This document shows positions 11,125 through 41,002 of a DNA stretch of 41,002 nucleotides, piece after piece. The notes under the pieces were generated by a model. The model did not search any database and was not told where the DNA came from. It saw only the letters and a list, made by a program, of their open reading frames with translations. Source of the stretch: Flavobacteriales bacterium (GTDB lineage: Bacteria; Bacteroidota; Bacteroidia; Flavobacteriales_F; PHOS-HE28); assembly GCA_013360395.1 (NCBI GenBank), contig JABWBQ010000026.1:1-41002 (forward strand), given 5' to 3'. Both the position numbers and the translations under genes were made by a program. Position 1 is the stretch's first letter. Every line of letters begins with the position of its first letter.

Positions 11125-12190
11125 GGCCGTCGCCCCCCTCCTCCATCGGCCGGGCCGCGGTGTAGGTGCGCCAGCGGGCCAGCACCGCCTCCATGTCGGG
11201 CGGCAGGGGGCTCTCGAAACGCATGCGCGCACCGGTGACGGGGTGGTCGAACTCCAGCGTGCGTGCGTGCAGCGCCTGCCGCGGCAGCAGCGTGAAGCAG
11301 TTCTCCACGAACTGCCTGTACTTGGTGAAGGTGGTGCCCTTCAGCACCCGGTCGCCGCCATAGGCCGCATCGTTGAACAACGGGTGCCCGGCCCACTGCA
11401 TGTGCACGCGGATCTGGTGGGTGCGACCGGTCTCCAGCTTGCATTCCACGAGGGTGACGTAGCGGAAGCGTTCGACCACCCGCCAGCGCGTGACGGCGGG
11501 CTTGCCTTGCTCGCCCCCGGGGAAGACATACTGCACGGTGCGGTCCTTGGGGCTGCGCCCGATGTGGGCCTCCACCACACCTTCGTCCTCGGTGAAGTCG
11601 CCCCACACCAGGGCCTGGTAGCGCCGGTCGCTGGTGCGCTCGAAGAATTGGCGGGCCAGGTGCGTCAACGCCTCCTCGTTCTTGCCGACGACCATCACAC
11701 CGCTGGTGTCCTTGTCGAGCCGGTGCACGAGACCGGGCCGGGGCACCTCGGCGCCGGGCACCGCCGGCAGCCGGCCGAAGTGGAACAGAAGCGCGTTCAC
11801 CAGGGTACCCGTCCAGTTGCCATGGCCCGGATGCACCACCAGGCCGGCGGGCTTGTCGATCACCACCACGTGATCGTCCTCGAACAGGACCCGCAGCGGG
11901 ATGTCCTCCGGCTTCAGCTCCACCTCCCGCTGGGGATACGGCAGCACGATGCTGATGATGTCGCCGGGCTTCACCTTCTGGCTGGGCTTGGCCGGCCGGT
12001 CGTTCACCCGCACATTGCCGGCCCGCGCGGCCACCTGGATCCGGTTGCGCGAGGTGTTCGCCAGGCGGTCGAAGAGGAACTTGTCCAGCCGCAGCAGCGT
12101 CTGGCCCGGGTCGCACACGATGCGGTGGTGCTCGTAGAGCTCCTGCTCCTCGCCGCCTTCGAGCTCCCCGTCCCCGGCCCCCTGGCTCAT
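11114..12190 (-). CDS. rluD: RluD/RluA-family 23S rRNA pseudouridine synthase
   Basis: 358 residues. An S4 RNA-binding domain (about 32-80, TLLRLDKFLFDRL...RVNDRPAKPSQ) precedes the RluA catalytic core. The signature HRLDKDTSG (156-164) carries the catalytic Asp159; later GRTHQIRVH and the HPxxxD-like GHPLFNDAAYGG are typical. In E. coli RluD modifies helix 69 of 23S rRNA; the exact target here is inferred. A short acidic extension (about 1-25, EGGEEQE) precedes S4. Start ATG overlaps the stop of the upstream T9SS gene (ATGA), placing it last in a PASTA-T9SS-rluD operon; the stop overlaps menE by 11 bp. Confidence 0.92.
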   Translation of the reverse strand: MSQGAGDGELEGGEEQELYEHHRIVCDPGQTLLRLDKFLFDRLANTSRNRIQVAARAGNVRVNDRPAKPSQKVKPGDIISIVLPYPQREVELKPEDIPLRVLFEDDHVVVIDKPAGLVVHPGHGNWTGTLVNALLFHFGRLPAVPGAEVPRPGLVHRLDKDTSGVMVVGKNEEALTHLARQFFERTSDRRYQALVWGDFTEDEGVVEAHIGRSPKDRTVQYVFPGGEQGKPAVTRWRVVERFRYVTLVECKLETGRTHQIRVHMQWAGHPLFNDAAYGGDRVLKGTTFTKYRQFVENCFTLLPRQALHARTLEFDHPVTGARMRFESPLPPDMEAVLARWRTYTAARPMEEGGDGLTA

Positions 12191-14409
12191 CGTTGCAGCA
12201 TCAACCGTGCATGCCCCAAGGCCGTCCCCTGCGCATCCAACAGCCGCACCACGTAGGACCCGGGCGCCGCGTCGGCCAGGTCGATGGGCGCATCGCTGCG
12301 GTACGGCGTGCGCAGCACCAGGCGACCGGTGGCGTCCCACAGCTCCACCTGGCCCGCGGCCGCACCCTCCAGGCGCACCCACAGCAGGTCCGAGGCCGGG
12401 TTGGGCCACAGTCCAAGCGTGGGCCGTGGCAGGCCGTCGGTGCCGGTGAACGGGTCGGTATCCGCCACCAGCACCGGCCGGAGCATGAGCGAACCGTGGT
12501 GCGAGGTGTTGGCGAAGGTCCCCGTGGTGTTGAAGAAGATGCGGGACTGGCTGTCCGTGTTGCGGTCGAAGCCCACGTTCATGAACGTGGCCGTGGTCTG
12601 CACGAAGCCCACGTAGAAGGTGGCAGGCACCAGGATGGTGGAATCCAGCGGATACTCCACGAACTTGTTAAGCCCGTGCGGCCGGTACTCCGGATCGCTG
12701 AAGGTGAAGTTCTGGTGGAGGATGGTCTCGGGGCTCAACGAGCTCCACACGGTGAGCAGGAAGCCGGCCTCCTCGGGGCTTTCCGGGAAGAAGATGGGGT
12801 CGAAGTAGATCCGCACGGCGCGCAGCGAATCGGGCTGCTGCATGTCGAAGCGCACGGCCACCTTGCCGCCGGGGGCATTGGTGAGGCCGTAGCCCGCCTC
12901 GGCGCTGCCATCGTCCAGGGCGTAGTAGTTGCTGAGCTCCTGCACGAACCGCATGGTGTCGTTGTAGCGGTTGATGTCGGGCGTGACGTCGATGGCGAAG
13001 GTGTTGCGCCAGAACGCCGCCCCCGTGCTGAGCCCCGGATCGTAGGCGAACGGGGCCACGGCATGGGTGCTGGTGAAGGTGCTGTTGGCGTTGTTGATGA
13101 TGTTGCTGCCCGCGCCGAAGGTGGCCACGGGCGCCTCCCCGTCGAGGCCCGAGCTGGCCTCCCAGGTGATGAAGCGGTCCTGGTCCGCCAGGTTCTTCTG
13201 CAGCAGGTCCACCGATGTGGCCATGAACGCGGCGGGGGCGTTGCTGAAATGCGTGAAGGGCACGGCGGTCCAGGTGTTGAGCAGGGTGTTGCCCGGGTAC
13301 ACCCAGGCCACGTCCACCAGCAGCGTGTCGTCGTGGGCGCGCTGCCGGGCCAGCCGCACGTAGTCGATGTGCCAGTGGTCCAGCGCACCGCTGCGCGTGC
13401 CGTAGTTCAGGAAGCGGAAACGGAAGTCGGGCTTCAGGAACCGGAAGTCGGTGATGGGCAGCAGCACCTGCCGGAAGGGTGCGAGCGCCGTGTAGGGCGT
13501 GCTCCAGCGACGGATCCAGGCCTCCTCATCCGGCGCGTAGAACTCCAGCACCAGGCTGTCCTGGGGCTGCACTTCGGTGTCGCCGCTGCGTCCCTGGGGC
13601 TGGTAAAAGAAGCTGAGGTAGATGGAATCGCCCGGCGGATAGGCCATGTTGATGGGCACCGAGGTGAGGTGGTCGTTGATGCCGTAGGCCGTGGGTGAAT
13701 TGGTGACGTAGGGGATGCCGGTGCGGTCCACGCCGTCGAAGGTGGCCACGCCGATGGTGGGCGGGTCGATCGGGTAGGTTCCATTGATGTGCGCATCGTC
13801 GTCGGCCCACAGGATCAGCGGCACGTCGATCCCGTTCTGTTCGTAGGTGCGCGGGTCGGCCGGCACGGTGTACACCTCGAGCGAGTCCTGCAACAGGTCG
13901 GCGGCGGGCACGGCGAGCGTGTCGATGAAGGGGTCGGTCAGGGTGTCGTAGATCGTATAGGGCGGCCAGGCGGACTGCGTGATGGAGGTGGCCGGATAGG
14001 TACTGAGGTCGAACAGCTCGATGGTGATGAAGGGGTTCGCCTCGCGCCAGGTGCTGTCCACGCCGAGGGTGTCCGTGTAGTAGTGGTACGTGGTGTCCGA
14101 ATAGTAGGCCATGTCCGGCGCGGAGACGCCGCCCAAGGCGATCCTGTACACCACATCCAGCAGTGTCACCCCGGGATCGTCCGTCGCGGCGTTGAGGTGG
14201 CGCGTGCGGTCGATGGAGAAATCGTCCATCAAGGGCAGCTCCTGGGTGGCGTTCTCGTAGATGAAGAAGGTGTTCGCCGCAGCGCGCACCAGGGGCCGCT
14301 CGTTCTCCGGGCGGGCCTGGCCGTTCAAGGGAAGGAGCACTTCCTGTTGCGCCAAGGCGGTGGTGGCCAGCAGGGCGGTGGCCAGCAGGGCAAGGTCACG
14401 GTTCCACAT
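12187..14409 (-). CDS. Large secreted protein with T9SS type A sorting domain
   Basis: 740 residues. Signal peptide MWNRDLALLATALLATTALAQQ. The body (about 25-660) is a long beta-rich, Asp/Thr/Tyr-rich extracellular region. A sandwich-like stretch around 270-365 (GDSIYLSFFYQPQG...HWHIDYVRL) resembles a jelly-roll/concanavalin-type domain as found in MAM or LamG folds, tentatively. The C-terminal ~75 residues are the sorting domain: LGLWPNPASDLLWVRLEG, VELWDATGRLVLR, then APGSYVVRLLDAQG. It overlaps the PASTA gene upstream by 14 bp and rluD downstream by 4 bp, so this surface protein is cotranscribed with housekeeping genes. Enzymatic function was not recognised; adhesion or matrix roles are possible. 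Confidence 0.9.
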   Translation of the reverse strand: MWNRDLALLATALLATTALAQQEVLLPLNGQARPENERPLVRAAANTFFIYENATQELPLMDDFSIDRTRHLNAATDDPGVTLLDVVYRIALGGVSAPDMAYYSDTTYHYYTDTLGVDSTWREANPFITIELFDLSTYPATSITQSAWPPYTIYDTLTDPFIDTLAVPAADLLQDSLEVYTVPADPRTYEQNGIDVPLILWADDDAHINGTYPIDPPTIGVATFDGVDRTGIPYVTNSPTAYGINDHLTSVPINMAYPPGDSIYLSFFYQPQGRSGDTEVQPQDSLVLEFYAPDEEAWIRRWSTPYTALAPFRQVLLPITDFRFLKPDFRFRFLNYGTRSGALDHWHIDYVRLARQRAHDDTLLVDVAWVYPGNTLLNTWTAVPFTHFSNAPAAFMATSVDLLQKNLADQDRFITWEASSGLDGEAPVATFGAGSNIINNANSTFTSTHAVAPFAYDPGLSTGAAFWRNTFAIDVTPDINRYNDTMRFVQELSNYYALDDGSAEAGYGLTNAPGGKVAVRFDMQQPDSLRAVRIYFDPIFFPESPEEAGFLLTVWSSLSPETILHQNFTFSDPEYRPHGLNKFVEYPLDSTILVPATFYVGFVQTTATFMNVGFDRNTDSQSRIFFNTTGTFANTSHHGSLMLRPVLVADTDPFTGTDGLPRPTLGLWPNPASDLLWVRLEGAAAGQVELWDATGRLVLRTPYRSDAPIDLADAAPGSYVVRLLDAQGTALGHARLMLQR

Positions 14410-34734: not shown

Positions 34735-35628
34735 CTATTTGGTTCCAACAGCCACCAAGGTGTCGGTAAGATCGGCGCTTTGCAATAGGGCTGCATAGGC
34801 CTCTTCCACGGCGCCGGAACGGAGCTCAGGCCAGCGCACCTGCCCGCCCGGACCACCGTGCGAAAGCCAGAACAGGTGGTTCGCAAGCGGGTATCGCTGG
34901 ACGCCGGAGACCTGCACATCCTTGAAGCCGGCCACCTGCAGATATGCCGCGAGACTGGCCCTGGTATGCAGGACCAGGTGTTCGCTCCAGAATGTGAACT
35001 GTCTGAAGGACATGCAGGCAAACTGCGTGATCAAGGCATCCCGGGCGTGCGGGACCTCCACCACGATCCTCCCTCCTTCCTCAAGCAACGCATGGATGGT
35101 CCGCAGTTCCTTGAGCGGGCCCGTCATGTGCTCGAAGACATGGAATAGGGAGGCCACGTCGAAGCGTTGTCCAGTGGCGGCCAGCTCCCCGGTGCCCGGA
35201 TGGACGTCGTAACCCAAGCCGCGGAGCATCCGCGCAGCCTCGGCCTGTGGCTCCACGGCCGCGACGGATGCGCAGACCGGCCTGACCAGGTCGAGCACCC
35301 CGCCCAGACCCGTTCCGATATCGACATAACGCTTCCCGGCCACCATGGCCGTGAGGGATGTCGCCCGTCGCAGATCATCCTCACGGGTGGCGACCAGCCC
35401 TTGGGCGCGTCCCGCCGGATCCCAGTAGGATAGACCGTCCTGGTCCGGATAGTAGGAGGCCCCGATCTGATCGATCCGGTCGAGCAGGAGCACACCGCTG
35501 GCCGGACAACGCCACACACTAACATCAGACCTGTCCCTCACTTGCGGGTGGAACGGTTCCAACGTGTCCTCGCGGACGATACCCAGAGAGACGAGTTCCT
35601 TGAGCAGGGCGTGGTCCGGGTGCGGCAT
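34735..35628 (-). CDS. Methyltransferase domain protein (Methyltransf_23-like)
   Basis: 297 residues. The start ATG 35628 gives MPHPDHALLKELVSLGIV. After an N-terminal part with a CPASG loop and YYPDQDGLSYW, the SAM domain shows YVDIGTGLGGVLDLVRPVCASVAAVEPQ, FDVASLFHVFEHMTGP and LLEEGGRIVVEVPHARDAL, typical of Methyltransf_23 enzymes beside O-antigen and capsule genes. The motif-I second Gly pattern (GTGLGG) is standard. Acceptor unknown. It is divergent from the second flippase gene (68 bp) and shares the lower GC of that block. A TTACTTTG lies 6 bp before the ATG. Confidence 0.85.
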   Translation of the reverse strand: MPHPDHALLKELVSLGIVREDTLEPFHPQVRDRSDVSVWRCPASGVLLLDRIDQIGASYYPDQDGLSYWDPAGRAQGLVATREDDLRRATSLTAMVAGKRYVDIGTGLGGVLDLVRPVCASVAAVEPQAEAARMLRGLGYDVHPGTGELAATGQRFDVASLFHVFEHMTGPLKELRTIHALLEEGGRIVVEVPHARDALITQFACMSFRQFTFWSEHLVLHTRASLAAYLQVAGFKDVQVSGVQRYPLANHLFWLSHGGPGGQVRWPELRSGAVEEAYAALLQSADLTDTLVAVGTK

Positions 35629-35634
35629 GACGGC

Positions 35635-35642
35635 CAAAGTAA
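35635..35642 (-). promoter_or_regulatory. -7-like element of the methyltransferase gene
   Basis: Minus-strand TTACTTTG, one mismatch (second base) from TAnnTTTG, 6 bp before the ATG. Confidence 0.4.
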
Positions 35643-35664
35643 AGGAGGGGCGTTGATCTGCGCC

Positions 35665-35672
35665 TATTTTCG
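35665..35672 (+). promoter_or_regulatory. -7-like element of the second flippase gene
   Basis: TATTTTCG, one mismatch from the consensus, 24 bp before ATG 35697. Confidence 0.42.
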
Positions 35673-35696
35673 TGCGGCCTATCGGCAAGGCCAGGC

Positions 35697-37172
35697 ATGG
35701 GGGAGGTCAAGCGGCAGGGCGTCAGGAACACTTTGATCGTCTACATCGGCACGCTGCTCGGTGCGGTGAGCCTGCTGTACGTGCAACCTGTGTTCCTGTC
35801 CAAGGAGGACCTTGGCCAGGCACGGCTGATCCTGTCCTTCGCTTCAGTGTTCTCCAGCCTGTTGTCCTTCGGGATCAGTTCGGTCACCGTCCGGTATCTC
35901 CCACGGCTCCACGATCCCTCCACGGGCCACCGCGGATTCTTCGGCTTCCTGTTGCTGTACATGGGGATCACGATCGTGGTGGGCAGTGCGGTGCTGTGGC
36001 TCCTGAGCCCGTGGCTTGGGGCGCTTTACGGCACGGGAACGGGGATCTTCTCCACTTACCTGCCCCATGTGCTCACCCTCTCGGCGTCGTACACGCTGGT
36101 GCTGGGCTTCAATGCATACTGCCTCGCCCTGTTGCGATCGGTGTTCCCGACCGCGGTGAACGACATCGTGCTGCGCCTGCTCTTCATCCTCGTCATCGCG
36201 GTGTACCACTTCGGCATCATCGGGAGGGATCGGTTCTTCCAGCTCTTCGTGCTGACCTATACGGCACAGGCCGCCCTGCTTTTGGGATACATCTTTCTGG
36301 TGGACCGCCCGGCCCTGCGGCCCGACCTGCAACACATCAACCGCGAGATCGGGCTTCGCTCCTTGCTGCGGTATGCGTCGATCATCACCTTCACCTCGGT
36401 CAATTCGGTCACGGTGAAGTACATCGATGCCGTTTTCGTGGGCTCGATCTCCGTGGGCCAGGTGGCGGTCTATAGCGTGGCCGCCTTCATGGGCCTCTTC
36501 ATCGAGGTGCCCCTCACTGCTTCGGAGCGCATCGCGAGCCCGGCCATATCCCATGCGCTTGCGGCCAGGGACATGGAGGCGGTCAAACGCATCTACTACG
36601 GGTCCGCCAGGGGGTTCCTGCTCTTCGGTGGTCTCGCCTTCCTGCTCGTGGTGCTCAACGCGAGGGATGCGCTGAGCCTGCTGCCGCAAGGCTATGCGGA
36701 CGGATCGGCGGTCACGATCATCATTGCTTTCGGGGCCTTGGTGAACATGGCTACCGGGATCAACCATCCGATCCTGGTCAATTCGGACAGGTACATCTAC
36801 GGCTCGGTCTTCATGGTCGTTCTGCTCGTGGCCACGCTGGTGGGCAACATCCTGCTCGTGCCACGGCTCGGAGCGATGGGTGCCGCGATCTCCTCCTGCA
36901 CCGCGAGCGTGCTGTACAACGCGCTCAAGTTCATCTTCATCCGCCAGCACTTCGGATTGCAGCCGTTCGACCGGGGCACGTTGGGCATCGTGGCGGTGAT
37001 CATCGCCGTGTGGATGACCATGGCCTGGCTCCCCTTCGGCCTTCCCACCGTCCCGGCGATCGCCGTCAGGTCGGTGGCCATCATCGCGGCCTATGCCGGT
37101 GCGCTCCACCTCTTCCGGCTCGGTGCCGGTGGCTTGGACGTCATCCGGCTTCTCCGCTCCCGGGACCGTTGA
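35697..37172 (+). CDS. Wzx-like polysaccharide flippase (second copy)
   Basis: 491 residues, MOP-type transporter with about 12-14 hydrophobic helices. It begins VKRQGVRNTLIVYIGTLLGAVSLLYVQPVFLSKEDLGQARLIL, the normal first helix and loop of Bacteroidota Wzx proteins, and retains the family's central LPQGYADGSAVTIIIAFGALVNMATGINHPILVNSDRY segment. It shares little visible sequence with the flippase at 17040, so the two probably move different glycans. GC is about 55-58%, lower than the surrounding genome. A polysialyltransferase-like gene follows after 5 bp, suggesting this flippase exports the glycan on which that enzyme acts. Confidence 0.9.
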   Translation: MGEVKRQGVRNTLIVYIGTLLGAVSLLYVQPVFLSKEDLGQARLILSFASVFSSLLSFGISSVTVRYLPRLHDPSTGHRGFFGFLLLYMGITIVVGSAVLWLLSPWLGALYGTGTGIFSTYLPHVLTLSASYTLVLGFNAYCLALLRSVFPTAVNDIVLRLLFILVIAVYHFGIIGRDRFFQLFVLTYTAQAALLLGYIFLVDRPALRPDLQHINREIGLRSLLRYASIITFTSVNSVTVKYIDAVFVGSISVGQVAVYSVAAFMGLFIEVPLTASERIASPAISHALAARDMEAVKRIYYGSARGFLLFGGLAFLLVVLNARDALSLLPQGYADGSAVTIIIAFGALVNMATGINHPILVNSDRYIYGSVFMVVLLVATLVGNILLVPRLGAMGAAISSCTASVLYNALKFIFIRQHFGLQPFDRGTLGIVAVIIAVWMTMAWLPFGLPTVPAIAVRSVAIIAAYAGALHLFRLGAGGLDVIRLLRSRDR

Positions 37173-37177
37173 CCGCC

Positions 37178-38320
37178 ATGCTGAGGATCTTCGTCTGCAC
37201 CTCCCACCTCAGCGCCGTGTTCATGACGCACTATGCGACACGCACGCGGCATTCGGCTTGCCGGGACGTGCTGATCATCGACATCGGTGTCCGCCGTGCA
37301 AGCGTGGTGCGCGCGATCCGTGAGGTCGCCACCTTACATCCCTGGTCGATCCTCCTCAACCTCTCGGACGAAGCGACGGAGGATCATGCCTTCCAGCCAA
37401 GCCTGTCCCGCAGGCTGATCCGCCAATGGAAGGAGGCACCCCTTGTCCGTGATGTGTACGGTGCCCTGCTCAAGTGGCATCAACGCAGGTACGACCAGCG
37501 CATGGCCGCCCTGTTGAAGACCCGGCTGGGGCTTTCCGGTGAAGAGACCACCACGGCGATCCACATCCACACCGAGTGTCAGATCGCCCGCGCCTTGTTG
37601 ATGATCCTGCCGGGCTCGGAAGTGCACTACTTCGAGCACGGACAGGGCGACTACATCTATCAGGGTCGCGCCGGGCTTCCGCAAGGCACGTTCCATGCCC
37701 TTTTTGCAGCGCCCTTCCGCCGGTACCTCGAGGCCCAGGGTCGCTCTTCGGCACACGTGCAGGACCTTGGCCTCGGCACGGATCTCCATGCCTTTTCCCA
37801 ACGTCTGCTTGAGCTGCACGGCGTGCGAACTCCGGAAACGATGGCGGACGCACGCCCCGTGGTGTTCGTCCTCCTGGAGGCGCTTGACATGTACAATGTG
37901 CCAGAAGGCTTCTGGGGCGCGTACATGGACAGGGTGATCGATGACCTTGAAAGACCACGGGACCACCTGTTCGTGCTGAAGCCGCACCCCAATCAATCGC
38001 CACCATCACTGGCCCACACCCTCTCGCGTCTGCGTGAACGCGGGATCGACCACCTGCTGCTGGCCGGAGAGGACGCGGGGATCTCCGCCGAGGTGGGTTT
38101 CGCCGCCTGGGCGCCCCGCGTACGCCACGTGTACTGCATCGTGTCCTCCGCGTGCTTCTACCTCTCGGCGCTCTATCCGGATGACCGGATCACCTACCAC
38201 TATTCCCTGGATCTGCTCGGTGCGCATATCGGTCAGGCCCCGCCCATGTACACCCGGCTTTTCCGGCGGATGCAACCCCTGATCACCGAGGTCTTCGCCG
38301 AGCACTGCGTGCCCTATTGA
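37178..38320 (+). CDS. Polysialyltransferase-like GT-B glycosyltransferase
   Basis: 380 residues. No close family was certain by eye, but it carries the three short motifs of bacterial sialyltransferases of the GT52/POLYST type. These are an acidic-Gly loop in HYFEHGQGDYIY (F152-E153-H154-G155, in place of E-D/E-G), KPHPNQ with H270-P271, and a Ser-Ser site S323-S324 in CIVSSACFYLSALY. It starts with MLRIFVCTSHLSAVFMTHYA, a typical first Rossmann strand. Such enzymes transfer nonulosonic acids or related sugars from CMP donors. A cytidylyltransferase lies 2 kb downstream on the other strand, which supports a CMP-sugar donor. GC is lower than the cassette it meets. It is 6 bp from the convergent SDR stop. 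Confidence 0.7.
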   Translation: MLRIFVCTSHLSAVFMTHYATRTRHSACRDVLIIDIGVRRASVVRAIREVATLHPWSILLNLSDEATEDHAFQPSLSRRLIRQWKEAPLVRDVYGALLKWHQRRYDQRMAALLKTRLGLSGEETTTAIHIHTECQIARALLMILPGSEVHYFEHGQGDYIYQGRAGLPQGTFHALFAAPFRRYLEAQGRSSAHVQDLGLGTDLHAFSQRLLELHGVRTPETMADARPVVFVLLEALDMYNVPEGFWGAYMDRVIDDLERPRDHLFVLKPHPNQSPPSLAHTLSRLRERGIDHLLLAGEDAGISAEVGFAAWAPRVRHVYCIVSSACFYLSALYPDDRITYHYSLDLLGAHIGQAPPMYTRLFRRMQPLITEVFAEHCVPY

Positions 38321-38326
38321 GGGCGA

Positions 38327-39100
38327 TCACAGCGTCCAGCCGTCGTCCACCACGATGTTCTGCCCGTTGATGTAGGCGGACAGGTCGCTGAGCAGGAAGA
38401 GCAGGGTGCCGGCGACGTCCTGGGCGTCGAGCATGCCCTTGGTGAGGGCGTGGGCGCGGTAGCGTTCCAGAAAGGCCTCGGGCTGCCCGTCGCGGATGCC
38501 GCCCGGGCTGATGGCGTTGCACCGGATGTTGCGGCCCGCACAATGCGCCGCGAGGTAGCGGGTGAGCATCAGCACCCCGCTCTTGATCACGGCGTATTCC
38601 ACCGGCATGGTCATGTCGGTCCCGGCATACACCTCGAAGCGCGGCGCCACAACCCCGTAGATGCTGGCCATGTTGACGATGTTGCCGTGGCCCTGCTGTT
38701 CGAAGCGGCGGATGAAACGTTGCGCCGCGAGGAAGTAGCCGCCGGCATGCATGCCCACGTTCTCCACGAAATCGGCGTAGGTGACCTCGTCGAACTTCCG
38801 GCCGTAGGCGGCGTTGCGCGGGTAGGCGTTGTTCACCAGTGCATCGATGTGGCCGAAACGCGCCACGGTGCCGTCGATCAGCCGGTCCAGCGAGCCGGCG
38901 TCGGTGATGTCGCAGGCCATGCCCACCACCGCCCCGCCGTGCCTGGTGGCGAGGGCCTCGACGACCCCGGTGGTATGGTCGTTCATCACCTCGGCCACCA
39001 CCACACGGCCGCCGGCCCCGGCCAGAGCATCGGCGAACACGCGGCCCAGCCGGCCGGCGCCGCCGGTGATCACCACCACCTTGCCGTCCAGCAGGCCCAT
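38327..39100 (-). CDS. Short-chain dehydrogenase/reductase
   Basis: 257 residues, classical SDR. NAD(P) loop TGGAGRLG (12-19), NNAY (90-93), catalytic Ser146 in NMASIYG, Tyr169 and Lys173 in YAVIK, and the C-terminal SPGGIRDGQPEAFLERY are intact. It is the third gene of a minus-strand cassette with a cytidylyltransferase and a class III aminotransferase, one base after the aminotransferase stop. This suggests it oxidises or reduces a sugar intermediate on the way to a modified nonulosonate-like donor; the keto product may feed the aminotransferase. The substrate is inferred only. Confidence 0.9.
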   Translation of the reverse strand: MGLLDGKVVVITGGAGRLGRVFADALAGAGGRVVVAEVMNDHTTGVVEALATRHGGAVVGMACDITDAGSLDRLIDGTVARFGHIDALVNNAYPRNAAYGRKFDEVTYADFVENVGMHAGGYFLAAQRFIRRFEQQGHGNIVNMASIYGVVAPRFEVYAGTDMTMPVEYAVIKSGVLMLTRYLAAHCAGRNIRCNAISPGGIRDGQPEAFLERYRAHALTKGMLDAQDVAGTLLFLLSDLSAYINGQNIVVDDGWTL

Positions 39101-39101
39101 C

Positions 39102-40445
39102 TCAGTTGTATTTGCGGAACACGGGCTTCACCGGCGGGCCCACCAGGTGGCTTTCCACCCCGTCCTGCAGGGCGGCGGCGTACACCGCGAAGGCCTTGCG
39201 CGCCGCGGTGAGCGTGAGGTCGAGCTCCGCATCGCCGTGGGCCAGCGACAGGGCCACCCACGGCATCAGCACACCGCCGCGCACCATCTCCTGGGCCCAC
39301 AGGGTGCGGAAGGGCATGGACACCCGGCCGTCGGCATCACGTGCGGTGTAGTACGGGGAGCAGCCGAATCCGTGCGCCTCGAAGTGGCCGGCCACGCCCG
39401 CCTCGGCGGCCAGCGCGTTGAGGCCCTCGATCAGCCGACGGCCGTAGCGCCACAGGTGACCGGTGACGTCCTCGCTGCGGTACACGTCCACCGTGCGGAT
39501 GAACGCGCCGAAGGCCGACATTTCCGAACCGTGGGTGGTGCTGATGAGGAAGACGCGCTCGGCACCCTGGTCGCGGATGCCTCCGAGCTCCATGATCTCC
39601 CGGCGGCCCGCCAGCGCCGCCAGCGCGAAGCCGTTGGCCATGCCCTTGCCGAAGGTGGCCAGGTCCGGTTCGATGCCGTACACCTTCATGGCGCCGTGCA
39701 GGTCCCAGCGGAAGCCGGTGATCATCTCGTCGAGGACGAACACGGCGCCGTGCTCCGCGCAGAGCGCTTTCACCCGGTGCAGGAAGTTGGCCCTGCGGTC
39801 GGTGCAGCGGCAGGGCGCGAGCAGGTCGGTGCAACCACCGCCGCAGGGCGCCACCGCGGTGGCGGGCTCCAGCATCACGCAGGCGATGCGCCCGGGATGC
39901 TCGGCGAAAAGCCGCTCCAGGGAGGCGATGTCGTTGTACTCGAACTTCAGGGTGAGCGCCTTGTGCTCGGCCGGGATGCCGCGGTCCATGGGCGTGGAAC
40001 CGATGAACCAGTCGTCGTAGGTGAAGAAGGGCTGGCCAGCGGGCACGGCCACGTGGGTGCGGCCGGTGTAGGCGCGTGCGAGCTTGACGGCCGCGGTGGT
40101 GACGGTGCTGCCGTTCTTGGCGAACTTCACCATGCCCGCCCACGGGAAGAGCGCCAGCAGGCGCTCGGCGGCCTCCAGCTCCAGGAGCGAGGGCCGCGTG
40201 AGGTTGTTGCCCCTGGCGATGGCATCGATGGCGGCGGCGTTGACACGCTCGTCGGCGTAACCCAGGGTCACCGCGCGCAGGCCCATGCCGTAGTCCAGGA
40301 AGCGCCGACCATCGGCGTCGTGGACGTACGCCCCCCGGCCGTGGCTCAGGATCGGCGGTGCGTTGGACGGGTATTGGTCGTCGCCCCGGCTGTAGGTGTG
40401 CGCACCCCCGGGGATCGCCGCGTGCAGTCTGTCGCTCCAGTTCAT
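39102..40445 (-). CDS. Class III PLP aminotransferase, glutamate-1-semialdehyde aminomutase-like
   Basis: 447 residues, fold type I. N-terminus IPGGAHTYSRGDDQYP and GRFLDYGMGL are typical of GSA-aminomutase relatives; FAKNGSTVTTAAVKLARAYTGR contacts the PLP phosphate; Asp239 (VLDEMITGFR) binds the pyridine N; Lys267 (TFGKGMANGF) forms the Schiff base. It is unlikely to be HemL because of its sugar-gene neighbours. A loop at about 200-215 contains four cysteines (C201, C205, C212, C214) in a Gly-rich stretch between EPATAVAP and FLHRVKAL, where HemL-like enzymes have none that I recall. Start ATG overlaps the cytidylyltransferase stop (ATGA). Probable role: amination of a keto sugar. Confidence 0.9.
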   Translation of the reverse strand: MNWSDRLHAAIPGGAHTYSRGDDQYPSNAPPILSHGRGAYVHDADGRRFLDYGMGLRAVTLGYADERVNAAAIDAIARGNNLTRPSLLELEAAERLLALFPWAGMVKFAKNGSTVTTAAVKLARAYTGRTHVAVPAGQPFFTYDDWFIGSTPMDRGIPAEHKALTLKFEYNDIASLERLFAEHPGRIACVMLEPATAVAPCGGGCTDLLAPCRCTDRRANFLHRVKALCAEHGAVFVLDEMITGFRWDLHGAMKVYGIEPDLATFGKGMANGFALAALAGRREIMELGGIRDQGAERVFLISTTHGSEMSAFGAFIRTVDVYRSEDVTGHLWRYGRRLIEGLNALAAEAGVAGHFEAHGFGCSPYYTARDADGRVSMPFRTLWAQEMVRGGVLMPWVALSLAHGDAELDLTLTAARKAFAVYAAALQDGVESHLVGPPVKPVFRKYN

Positions 40446-41002
40446 CGGTCGTCGATGGTTCCTTCCTGCCTGGCCTTCATCAGTGCCTCGATAAGGACGA
40501 GGTCCACGGCATCGTCCACCTCGAAGGCCTTCCACTTGGGCATGGGATGGCCCAGGGTACGTTCGTGGTAGAAGCTGCGGCGTTCGCGCAGGGAGGCCGT
40601 CCGCGCGATGTACATGCTGCCCTCGAAGAAGTACACGTCGTCGATCTCCTGCCGCCGCTTGAAGACGAACCGCGGGCCCTCGTAGGGGCGGATGAAGTGC
40701 GCCCCGTCCATGCGCGCCAGGAATGCGGGATGCCCGCCCTCGGTGCGGCACACGCCCACCACGCTCTCGGCCCCGGGGGTGGCCAGCAGCAGGTCCATGG
40801 CGGCGAGCACATCGGCGGCGGTGCGCTGGGGCGAGGTGGGCTCCAGCATGCACAGCAGGTCGAAGGTGCTGCCCTGCGCGGCGAAGTGGTCCAGGGCATG
40901 GAGCACGACGTCGATGGACGAGGCGGTGTCGGTGGCCAGGGCGGCGGGGCGCAGGAAGGGCAGCTCGGCCCCCGCGCTGCGGGCGGCGTCGGCGATGGCG
41001 GC
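40442..41002 (-). CDS. Acylneuraminate-type cytidylyltransferase (5' end outside window)
   Basis: The frame stays open to the right edge, so about 186 C-terminal residues are seen. LLCMLEPTSPQRTAADVLAAMDLLL is the hallmark of CMP-sialic acid/CMP-Kdo-type synthetases (usually QPTSPLR). FFEGSMYIARTASL matches the NGxxY region, and KWKAFEVDDAVDLVLIEALM matches the C-terminal D-D metal/dimer segment. The family makes CMP-activated nonulosonic acids from CTP. The exact sugar (Neu, Leg, Pse or a variant) cannot be told from this part. The N-terminal LxARxGSKxxxxKN motif lies outside. Four-base overlap with the aminotransferase; probably an operon continuing to the right. Confidence 0.82.
   Translation of the reverse strand, partial: AAIADAARSAGAELPFLRPAALATDTASSIDVVLHALDHFAAQGSTFDLLCMLEPTSPQRTAADVLAAMDLLLATPGAESVVGVCRTEGGHPAFLARMDGAHFIRPYEGPRFVFKRRQEIDDVYFFEGSMYIARTASLRERRSFYHERTLGHPMPKWKAFEVDDAVDLVLIEALMKARQEGTIDDR

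Follow-up and report, generated by a model that had tools for sequence, protein, structure and literature searches.

We analysed the end (positions 37178-41002) of a contig from a Flavobacteriales bacterium (GenBank assembly GCA_013360395.1, contig JABWBQ010000026.1); the whole contig, 41,002 nucleotides in length, is called the window hereafter. Three coupled genes encode a cytidylyltransferase, a class III aminotransferase dependent on pyridoxal phosphate (PLP), here termed AT3, and an oxidoreductase of the short-chain dehydrogenase/reductase (SDR) type; genes for a polysialyltransferase-like enzyme and a flippase lie next to them. AT3 and the SDR travel as a pair. It is well supported that the two form an add-on module to a nonulosonate pathway, with a function so far unassigned. 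Our proposal, to which we give as a whole slightly less than an even chance, is that this module oxidises and aminates a nonulosonic acid, most likely at C8. Bacterial sialic-acid-like sugars shape surface charge and recognition.

The pairing was followed in 35 genomes of the window's genus (G000-G034, the source genome being G000), with AT3 called by the cut-off of NF004856 and the SDR at an E value of 1e-25 or better. AT3 exceeded the cut-off in seven genomes, and relatives of the SDR occur in exactly the same seven and in none of the 28 others. The probability of an identical set of seven by chance is 1.5e-7, with relatedness ignored and some of the 28 genomes incomplete (66% upward). Such strict pairing fits the oxidation followed by amination that had been envisaged in the earlier note, a reading of the same DNA from its letters alone. 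NeuB was found in ten genomes of the genus, i.e. in all seven with AT3 and in three others (Fisher p 1.8e-5, relatedness likewise ignored). One of the three, G016 (rated 100% complete), carries LegB-LegC-NeuD-NeuB-NeuC and has neither AT3 over cut-off nor the SDR; the gene set described is that on contig C1, and C31 holds another NeuB. In G033, a CBS-DegT protein, a GNAT-TIM fusion and NeuB of the window type are present and the contig ends where AT3 would be expected, and G017 has a distant NeuB only (148.5 bits). Since NeuB accompanies AT3 in seven of seven genomes and G016 lacks the pair, we conclude that the pair goes with nonulosonate genes, yet a legionaminic acid (Leg) gene set can exist without it.

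The three genes are arranged as follows:

40442..41002, - strand: cytidylyltransferase, CMP-nonulosonate synthetase-like; 67.3 bits with the PseF model on the fragment, the N-terminus being lost at the contig end
39102..40445, - strand: AT3, class III PLP aminotransferase of the PRK06209 family; PF00202; NF004856 635.8 bits (cut-off 486)
38327..39100, - strand: SDR oxidoreductase, PRK09186/PtmA-like; PF13561; NF006619 327.8 bits (cut-off 255)

They are transcribed in this order. The cytidylyltransferase stop and the AT3 start overlap in ATGA, and a single base separates the AT3 stop from the SDR start. Pfam and NCBIfam scans of AT3 used 39102-40421, which is 8 residues short of the start codon. 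With the flagellin-modification PtmA model NF050062 the SDR reaches 247.9 bits, below the cut-off of 350.

The window (contig C132) is one of 139 contigs of the source genome and ends at 41002. The sole NeuB-family gene of this genome lies at the very start of another contig, C19 (305.7 bits, 3' end cut), and is followed there by a glycosyltransferase-like gene. In G026 (locus L037) the region is unbroken and reads SDR-AT3-cytidylyltransferase-CBS-DegT-GNAT/TIM-NeuB-glycosyltransferase. G008 and G025 are alike, so that this order is found in three of the six other AT3 genomes of the genus; G009, G021 and G022 are arranged otherwise or broken. Alignment of 9 kb of L037 (7800-16800) to the source genome matched C132:38296-40999 (90%) and C19:15-3171 (94%), and the intervening ~3.1 kb gave just short matches of 68-80% to other source contigs. 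Because the alignment spans both, C132 and C19 are neighbours by synteny with a hole between them, and in the source genome, too, NeuB probably adjoins the window operon. The missing middle was sought there by protein (part of CBS-DegT) and by DNA and was not found; the protein search returned other DegT genes, at 46% identity at best. The CBS-DegT copy of the source genome presumably lies in the assembly hole.

Model scores of the intact relative specify what is encoded. NeuB of L037 scores 420.9 bits with TIGR03569, over the cut-off for N-acetylneuraminate synthase (399.65), and 269.6 bits with the PseI-type model, below the cut-off of 340.25 and lower than with the NnaB model; the NeuB fragment of the source genome likewise scores higher on the NnaB than on the PseI-type model. 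The best model for the CBS-DegT protein is LegC (355.9 bits, cut-off 420). The cytidylyltransferase (PF02348) reaches 134 bits with PseF, below the cut-off of 205.7, and no more than 46.3 bits with KdsB models; an enzyme of the 3-deoxy-D-manno-octulosonate (Kdo) type was rejected on the latter scores. We consider it very likely that the window carries the end of a nonulosonate cassette. This is what the earlier note had suspected, naming the want of a NeuB-like or other 8-9 carbon sugar synthase nearby, or a match of the cytidylyltransferase to CMP-Kdo synthetase, as what would speak against it; as NeuB is there (intact in L037, on the abutting contig C19 by synteny) and the cytidylyltransferase is not of the Kdo type, neither objection stands. 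The same operon of L037 holds, at 12128-13414, a GNAT acetyltransferase fused to an AP_endonuc_2/xylose-isomerase-like TIM barrel, for which no match was found in the best 80 of at least 562 AT3 loci from named genomes (BLAST, 40% coverage).

These 80 loci derive from a scan of named genomes that gave at least 597 pattern matches, at least 562 of them confirmed. Together with nine loci from relatives, and with two subtracted for shared contigs, they make up 87 loci, which were classed by BLAST against the proteins of this analysis: 65 are nonulosonate-associated, 16 lie in sugar-nucleotide loci and six belong to the window's genus. The split into 65 and 16 was set by hand after the neighbours had been seen; a tree puts the same 16 outside a 72-row branch (support 80). 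This tree was made by a quick method and has long branches for L040, L113 and L134. In it the window's genus makes up a branch of its own (7 rows, support 100), which is separate from the main nonulosonate branch (64 rows, support 96).

In nonulosonate-type loci with room for the neighbour in question, the cytidylyltransferase is found directly upstream of AT3 in 54 of 61 cases, an aldo-keto reductase (AKR) lies upstream in 28 of 52, and in 16 of 59 the gene immediately after AT3 encodes an SDR. One or the other oxidoreductase is present in 41 of 50 loci and both in none (Fisher p 8.7e-7, relatedness ignored); nor do the two occur together anywhere in the fetched stretch of any of the 87 loci. 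For this reason the partner of AT3 looks like an interchangeable oxidoreductase. AKR-type loci with full flanks (n=24) contain NeuB/PseI in 23 cases, DegT in 20 and a dehydratase in 20, the corresponding figures for SDR-type loci (n=12) being seven for NeuB, four for DegT and zero for the dehydratase, as judged by a BLAST test. Twenty of the 65 loci are devoid of NeuB in the fetched stretch, and NeuB was found elsewhere in all 12 genomes searched out of these 20; the background rate of NeuB is 26 of 58 relatives. Since DegT is encoded both in the operon of the relatives, where it is LegC-like, and in most AKR-type loci, AT3 is a second aminotransferase, and the earlier suggestion that a class III enzyme here takes the place of DegT had to be abandoned.

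Its family name notwithstanding, AT3 is not glutamate-1-semialdehyde aminomutase (GSAM, HemL), a reading rejected on model score, separate tree branch and shortened gating loop. AT3 scores 181.1 bits with the HemL model TIGR00713 (cut-off 527.3), and HemL stands apart from AT3 in the tree (support 100). Eight alignment columns, which we take to be the gating loop from the role of that loop in GSAM, hold no residue in any of the 10 AT3 rows and are occupied in all 3 HemL-like rows. K267 of AT3 aligns with the GSAM lysine that forms the Schiff base with PLP. Solved class III structures matching AT3 include C-6' aminotransferases, a 6'-epimerase/C-6' aminotransferase and racemases. Phage searches with AT3 and the SDR and a plasmid search with AT3 returned only matches below 60% identity, the plasmid ones being named aminomutase where annotated. 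In the source genome, rated 99.85% complete, no HemL over the curated cut-off was found, the best match lying inside a 2175-residue open frame on contig C66.

From the gene families, their order and their co-occurrence, computed as above, we infer a reaction together with its probable position and timing. The LegC-like DegT protein, the GNAT-TIM protein and NeuB would make a nine-carbon acid, which the cytidylyltransferase would activate. The SDR would turn a hydroxyl of this acid, whether CMP-bound or free, into a ketone, which AT3 would transaminate to give a nonulosonic acid with one extra amino group, C8 being its most probable position. Transfer of the acid would fall to the polysialyltransferase-like enzyme and export of the glycan to the flippase. 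Judging from the sequences, extra amination by the pair has about an even chance; C8 as its position, suggested by analogy, has somewhat less than that and is the weakest link of the proposal.

The Leg and pseudaminic acid (Pse) routes already put nitrogen at C5 and, through LegC or PseC, at C7. In a 5,7-diamino-3,5,7,9-tetradeoxy acid C6 holds the ring oxygen and only O4 and O8 are free, and both of these arise only after the NeuB step. The literature describes the steps of the Pse route, including the PseC nitrogen at C7 (PMC5109656), and offers several precedents. EpaB, an SDR that shares its Pfam family with the AT3 partner, converts Pse to its 8-epimer together with EpaA (PMC12053666), AciE is assigned to 8-epimerisation for acinetaminic acid (PMC5595891), and an 8-amino nonulosonic acid, its acyl groups given in two ways, is reported from the O-antigen of a bacteroidote, Flexibacter (Tenacibaculum) maritimum (PMC3210612). 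Free O4 and O8, EpaB and AciE, the T. maritimum sugar and the class III C-6' aminotransferases make 8-amination our best guess.

The combination of cytidylyltransferase, AT3 and oxidoreductase may be a widespread module for triamino (8-amino) nonulosonates on the Leg and Pse pathways, in Bacteroidota and other phyla, and would explain the T. maritimum sugar; we hold this to be possible, with the odds leaning against it. T. maritimum is not among the best 80 of the at least 562 AT3 loci, and the available portion of its genome paper makes no mention of nonulosonic acid (NulO) genes. In the literature covered, the paper on the O-antigen cluster of this species excepted, we found no genes for biosynthesis of its 8-amino sugar. 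Neither did the accessible literature, which contains few subscription papers, yield a function for an AT3-type aminotransferase in a nonulosonate locus, and no AT3-like enzyme was encountered in the parts available on B. subtilis sps and Clostridium. If the proposal is true, the gene pair would let one predict from a genome which bacteria bear a nonulosonic acid of more cationic character, an aminotransferase family now listed in databases under the name of a heme enzyme gains a function, and the origin of the reported 8-amino nonulosonic acid becomes directly testable.

Several observations weigh against amination of a nonulosonic acid by the pair. In nine of the 50 nonulosonate-type loci neither partner occupies its usual position. 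A more distant SDR exists in three of them (L081, L097, L114), L083 has an AKR on the opposite strand, L118 has a Gfo/Idh/MocA protein, and L091, L101, L115 and L119 contain none of these. Sugar-nucleotide loci with room lack NeuB (0 of 9), AKR (0 of 12), SDR (0 of 16) and a cytidylyltransferase of the kinds classed here (0 of 15), zeros that are partly by choice because the split was set by hand. In 13 of the 87 loci a second, divergent NeuB (24-31% identity to references) lies within 1.5 kb upstream of AT3 (L066, L070, L071, L072, L074, L078, L079, L101, L107, L110, L111, L117, L119; 11 of these hold another NeuB/PseI), so that AT3 might act on another acid. Within the genus, AT3 and the SDR sit on separate contigs in G009 and G022. 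One contig of G009 ends with AT3 and the first part of a methyltransferase gene, and the end of another carries a methyltransferase fragment, SDR, LegB, LegC, NeuD, NeuB and NeuC; the two ends would probably join. AT3 itself is divided between contigs in G022, and a different one holds the SDR along with a Leg set. G057, of the same class, has a 40% SDR ~4.6 kb from NeuB and no AT3 over cut-off. A Plesiomonas gene table contains ptmA and no class III aminotransferase, and PtmA is assigned there to the opening part of the Leg route, that of the GDP-sugars (PMC4481668). The NulO locus of Legionella pneumophila Sg6 and Sg12 holds a GSAM-like gene, and only legionaminic-type homopolymers are cited there for non-1 serogroups (PMC3694923).

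The core sugar also speaks for caution. LegB over cut-off was not found in the source genome (best 156 against 475), the genome-wide search not extending to PseB, PseG and further families of dehydratases, and NeuC (TIGR03568) over cut-off is absent from all four window-type genomes (G000, G008, G025, G026; G025 is rated 83% complete). For these reasons the core sugar of window-type genomes is uncertain. The same model of the hydrolysing 2-epimerase LegG/NeuC is exceeded in three of the seven AT3 genomes, namely G009, G021 and G022. In G021, cytidylyltransferase-AT3-SDR lies directly ahead of LegB, LegC, NeuD, NeuB and NeuC, with LegB (480.8 bits), LegC, NeuD and NeuC over their model cut-offs. 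The source genome has two PF02350 matches and LegB-like proteins; a dehydratase and a 2-epimerase may be encoded elsewhere in it, or the route may differ.

These facts leave room for other explanations. The window-type route might do without LegB and NeuC, with AT3, the SDR and the GNAT-TIM fusion building an unusual core sugar. The fusion within the operon, the lack of both genes over cut-off and the dehydratase count of 0 in 12 SDR-type loci would agree with this, but the missing enzymes could be those encoded elsewhere and the pair accompanies a full Leg set in G021, which makes such a route improbable. We regard as similarly improbable that the SDR and AT3 act early, making an amino-hexose for a nucleotide-sugar precursor in the manner of PtmA in the Campylobacter-type Leg route. 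The likeness of the SDR to PRK09186/PtmA, the placement of ptmA mentioned above and a Gfo/Idh/MocA oxidoreductase (labelled PtmF-like) in two AT3 loci, G009 (L033) and L118, point this way; against it, the Leg gene set of G016 does without AT3 and SDR, Pse-type loci that lack an SDR also have AT3, accompanied by an AKR, and the AT3 gene stands directly behind that of the cytidylyltransferase, the last step.

An unlikely, though slightly less improbable, explanation is that no 8-amino group arises and the pair acts instead on stereochemistry, by epimerisation at C8 or C7, or on another position, as in 4-amination. Related SDRs take part in 8-epimerisation (EpaB) or are assigned to it (AciE), racemases and a 6'-epimerase/aminotransferase are among the class III relatives, a third amine is not mentioned in the accessible account of L. 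pneumophila Sg6 with its GSAM-like gene, and O4 is likewise a free hydroxyl. However, the accessible text of the EpaAB paper (PMC12053666) mentions an aminotransferase zero times, the Schiff-base lysine is kept in AT3, and AKR and SDR are never joined in the 50 AT3 loci, whereas EpaAB joins both kinds. Finally, the cassette could be an ordinary legionaminic or neuraminic one in which AT3 and SDR are passengers or a heme-type aminomutase without a sugar role. The NCBI family name (glutamate-1-semialdehyde aminomutase) and the want of another HemL over cut-off in the source genome would suit this, but it is made highly improbable by the low HemL score and separate HemL branch, by the 28 of 35 genus genomes without AT3 over cut-off and by strict pairing and translational coupling with the SDR. 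Oxidation and amination of a nonulosonic acid by the SDR and AT3 thus stays our preferred reading, at the strength given above.

Among known systems, the Leg pathway (LegB-C-H-I-G-F with PtmA) shares with the AT3 loci a NeuB/LegI-like synthase, a LegC-like DegT protein, a LegF-like cytidylyltransferase and a PtmA-like SDR, and in G021 also LegB, LegC, NeuD and NeuC beside AT3. It differs by the LegB and NeuC missing from the source and window-type genomes, respectively, by the GNAT-TIM fusion replacing the acetyltransferase and by AT3, which is not named among Leg enzymes in the literature found, as far as accessible. In Shewanella, KdnA and KdnB reportedly lead to 8-amino-Kdo by oxidation and subsequent amination of the terminal carbinol of an eight-carbon acid, KdnA being said to be a DegT-type enzyme and KdnB an Fe-type alcohol dehydrogenase. 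By contrast, the window has a class III (PF00202) aminotransferase and a PF13561 SDR, with NeuB. The 8-amino-Kdo sugar is covered in PMC3210612. Acinetobacter EpaA-EpaB and AciE are likewise added oxidoreductases, with a nonulosonic acid as their substrate, a PF13561 SDR and a link to a cytidylyltransferase domain; unlike the window, with its one oxidoreductase and AT3, EpaAB combines an SDR and an AKR domain without aminotransferase. Acinetobacter elaABC is a possible equivalent of the AT3 set; ElaA is called a putative oxidoreductase in one paper, and the word "aminotransferase" occurs in neither of two. In the NulO locus of L. pneumophila Sg6/Sg12 the GSAM-like protein is accompanied by PseG, a cytidylyltransferase, an aryl-alcohol-dehydrogenase-like oxidoreductase, DegT, CapD and NeuB; in the accessible part of PMC3694923 this protein appears as a table entry without assigned function.

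Some AT3 loci have further contents. The sugar-nucleotide loci (L120-L132, L134-L136) perhaps serve another amino sugar; L121 contains NTP_transferase and a C-methyltransferase, and others among them show similar sequence starts and PIG-L-like proteins. A DUF4910/DUF2172/HTH_47 protein is found repeatedly next to AT3, in nonulosonate and in sugar-nucleotide loci alike (L087, L092, L095, L099 and several of L120-L128); it was typed on L092 and assigned elsewhere by similar sequence. In G009 (L033/L163), AT3 is near a Gfo/Idh/MocA oxidoreductase, an SpsF-like cytidylyltransferase and a methyltransferase, and upstream are genes whose sequence suggests an ABC exporter.

The remaining genes of the region are these:

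37178..38320, + strand: polysialyltransferase-like glycosyltransferase, GT-B fold; PF07388 20.6 bits, under cut-off; fold match 5wc6
35697..37172, + strand: MOP-superfamily (Wzx/MurJ-like) flippase, just outside the stretch 37178-41002; fold match MurJ, WzxE
34735..35688, - strand: S-adenosylmethionine-dependent methyltransferase adjoining the flippase; PF13489; neighbours in L034, L035 and L037 72-74% identical

The three coupled genes converge on the polysialyltransferase-like gene, itself downstream of the flippase. All genes of the operon and its neighbourhood proposed earlier were thus found. The window gene order is kept in three genomes of the same genus, where the flippase stays beside the cassette. 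Although the polysialyltransferase-like protein stays below the PF07388 gathering score (20.6 against 23.3 bits), its fold model (pLDDT, the predicted confidence, 83) is best matched by the bacterial polysialyltransferase 5wc6 (Z 20.4, root-mean-square deviation 4.3, 313 residues), the top non-sialyltransferase row having Z 15.8, and the motifs EHG and KPHP are invariant across six aligned sequences, that of the window among them. No significant Pfam match was found for the flippase, which has 13 hydrophobic segments; its fold model (pLDDT 75) resembles MurJ 6nc6 (Z 31.2, deviation 3.0, 447 residues) and WzxE (Z 27.6, deviation 3.5, 403 residues). This modelled likeness is to the flippase fold, not to its substrate. 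The sialyltransferase-like and flippase folds predicted by these models agree with the transfer and export suggested in the earlier note.

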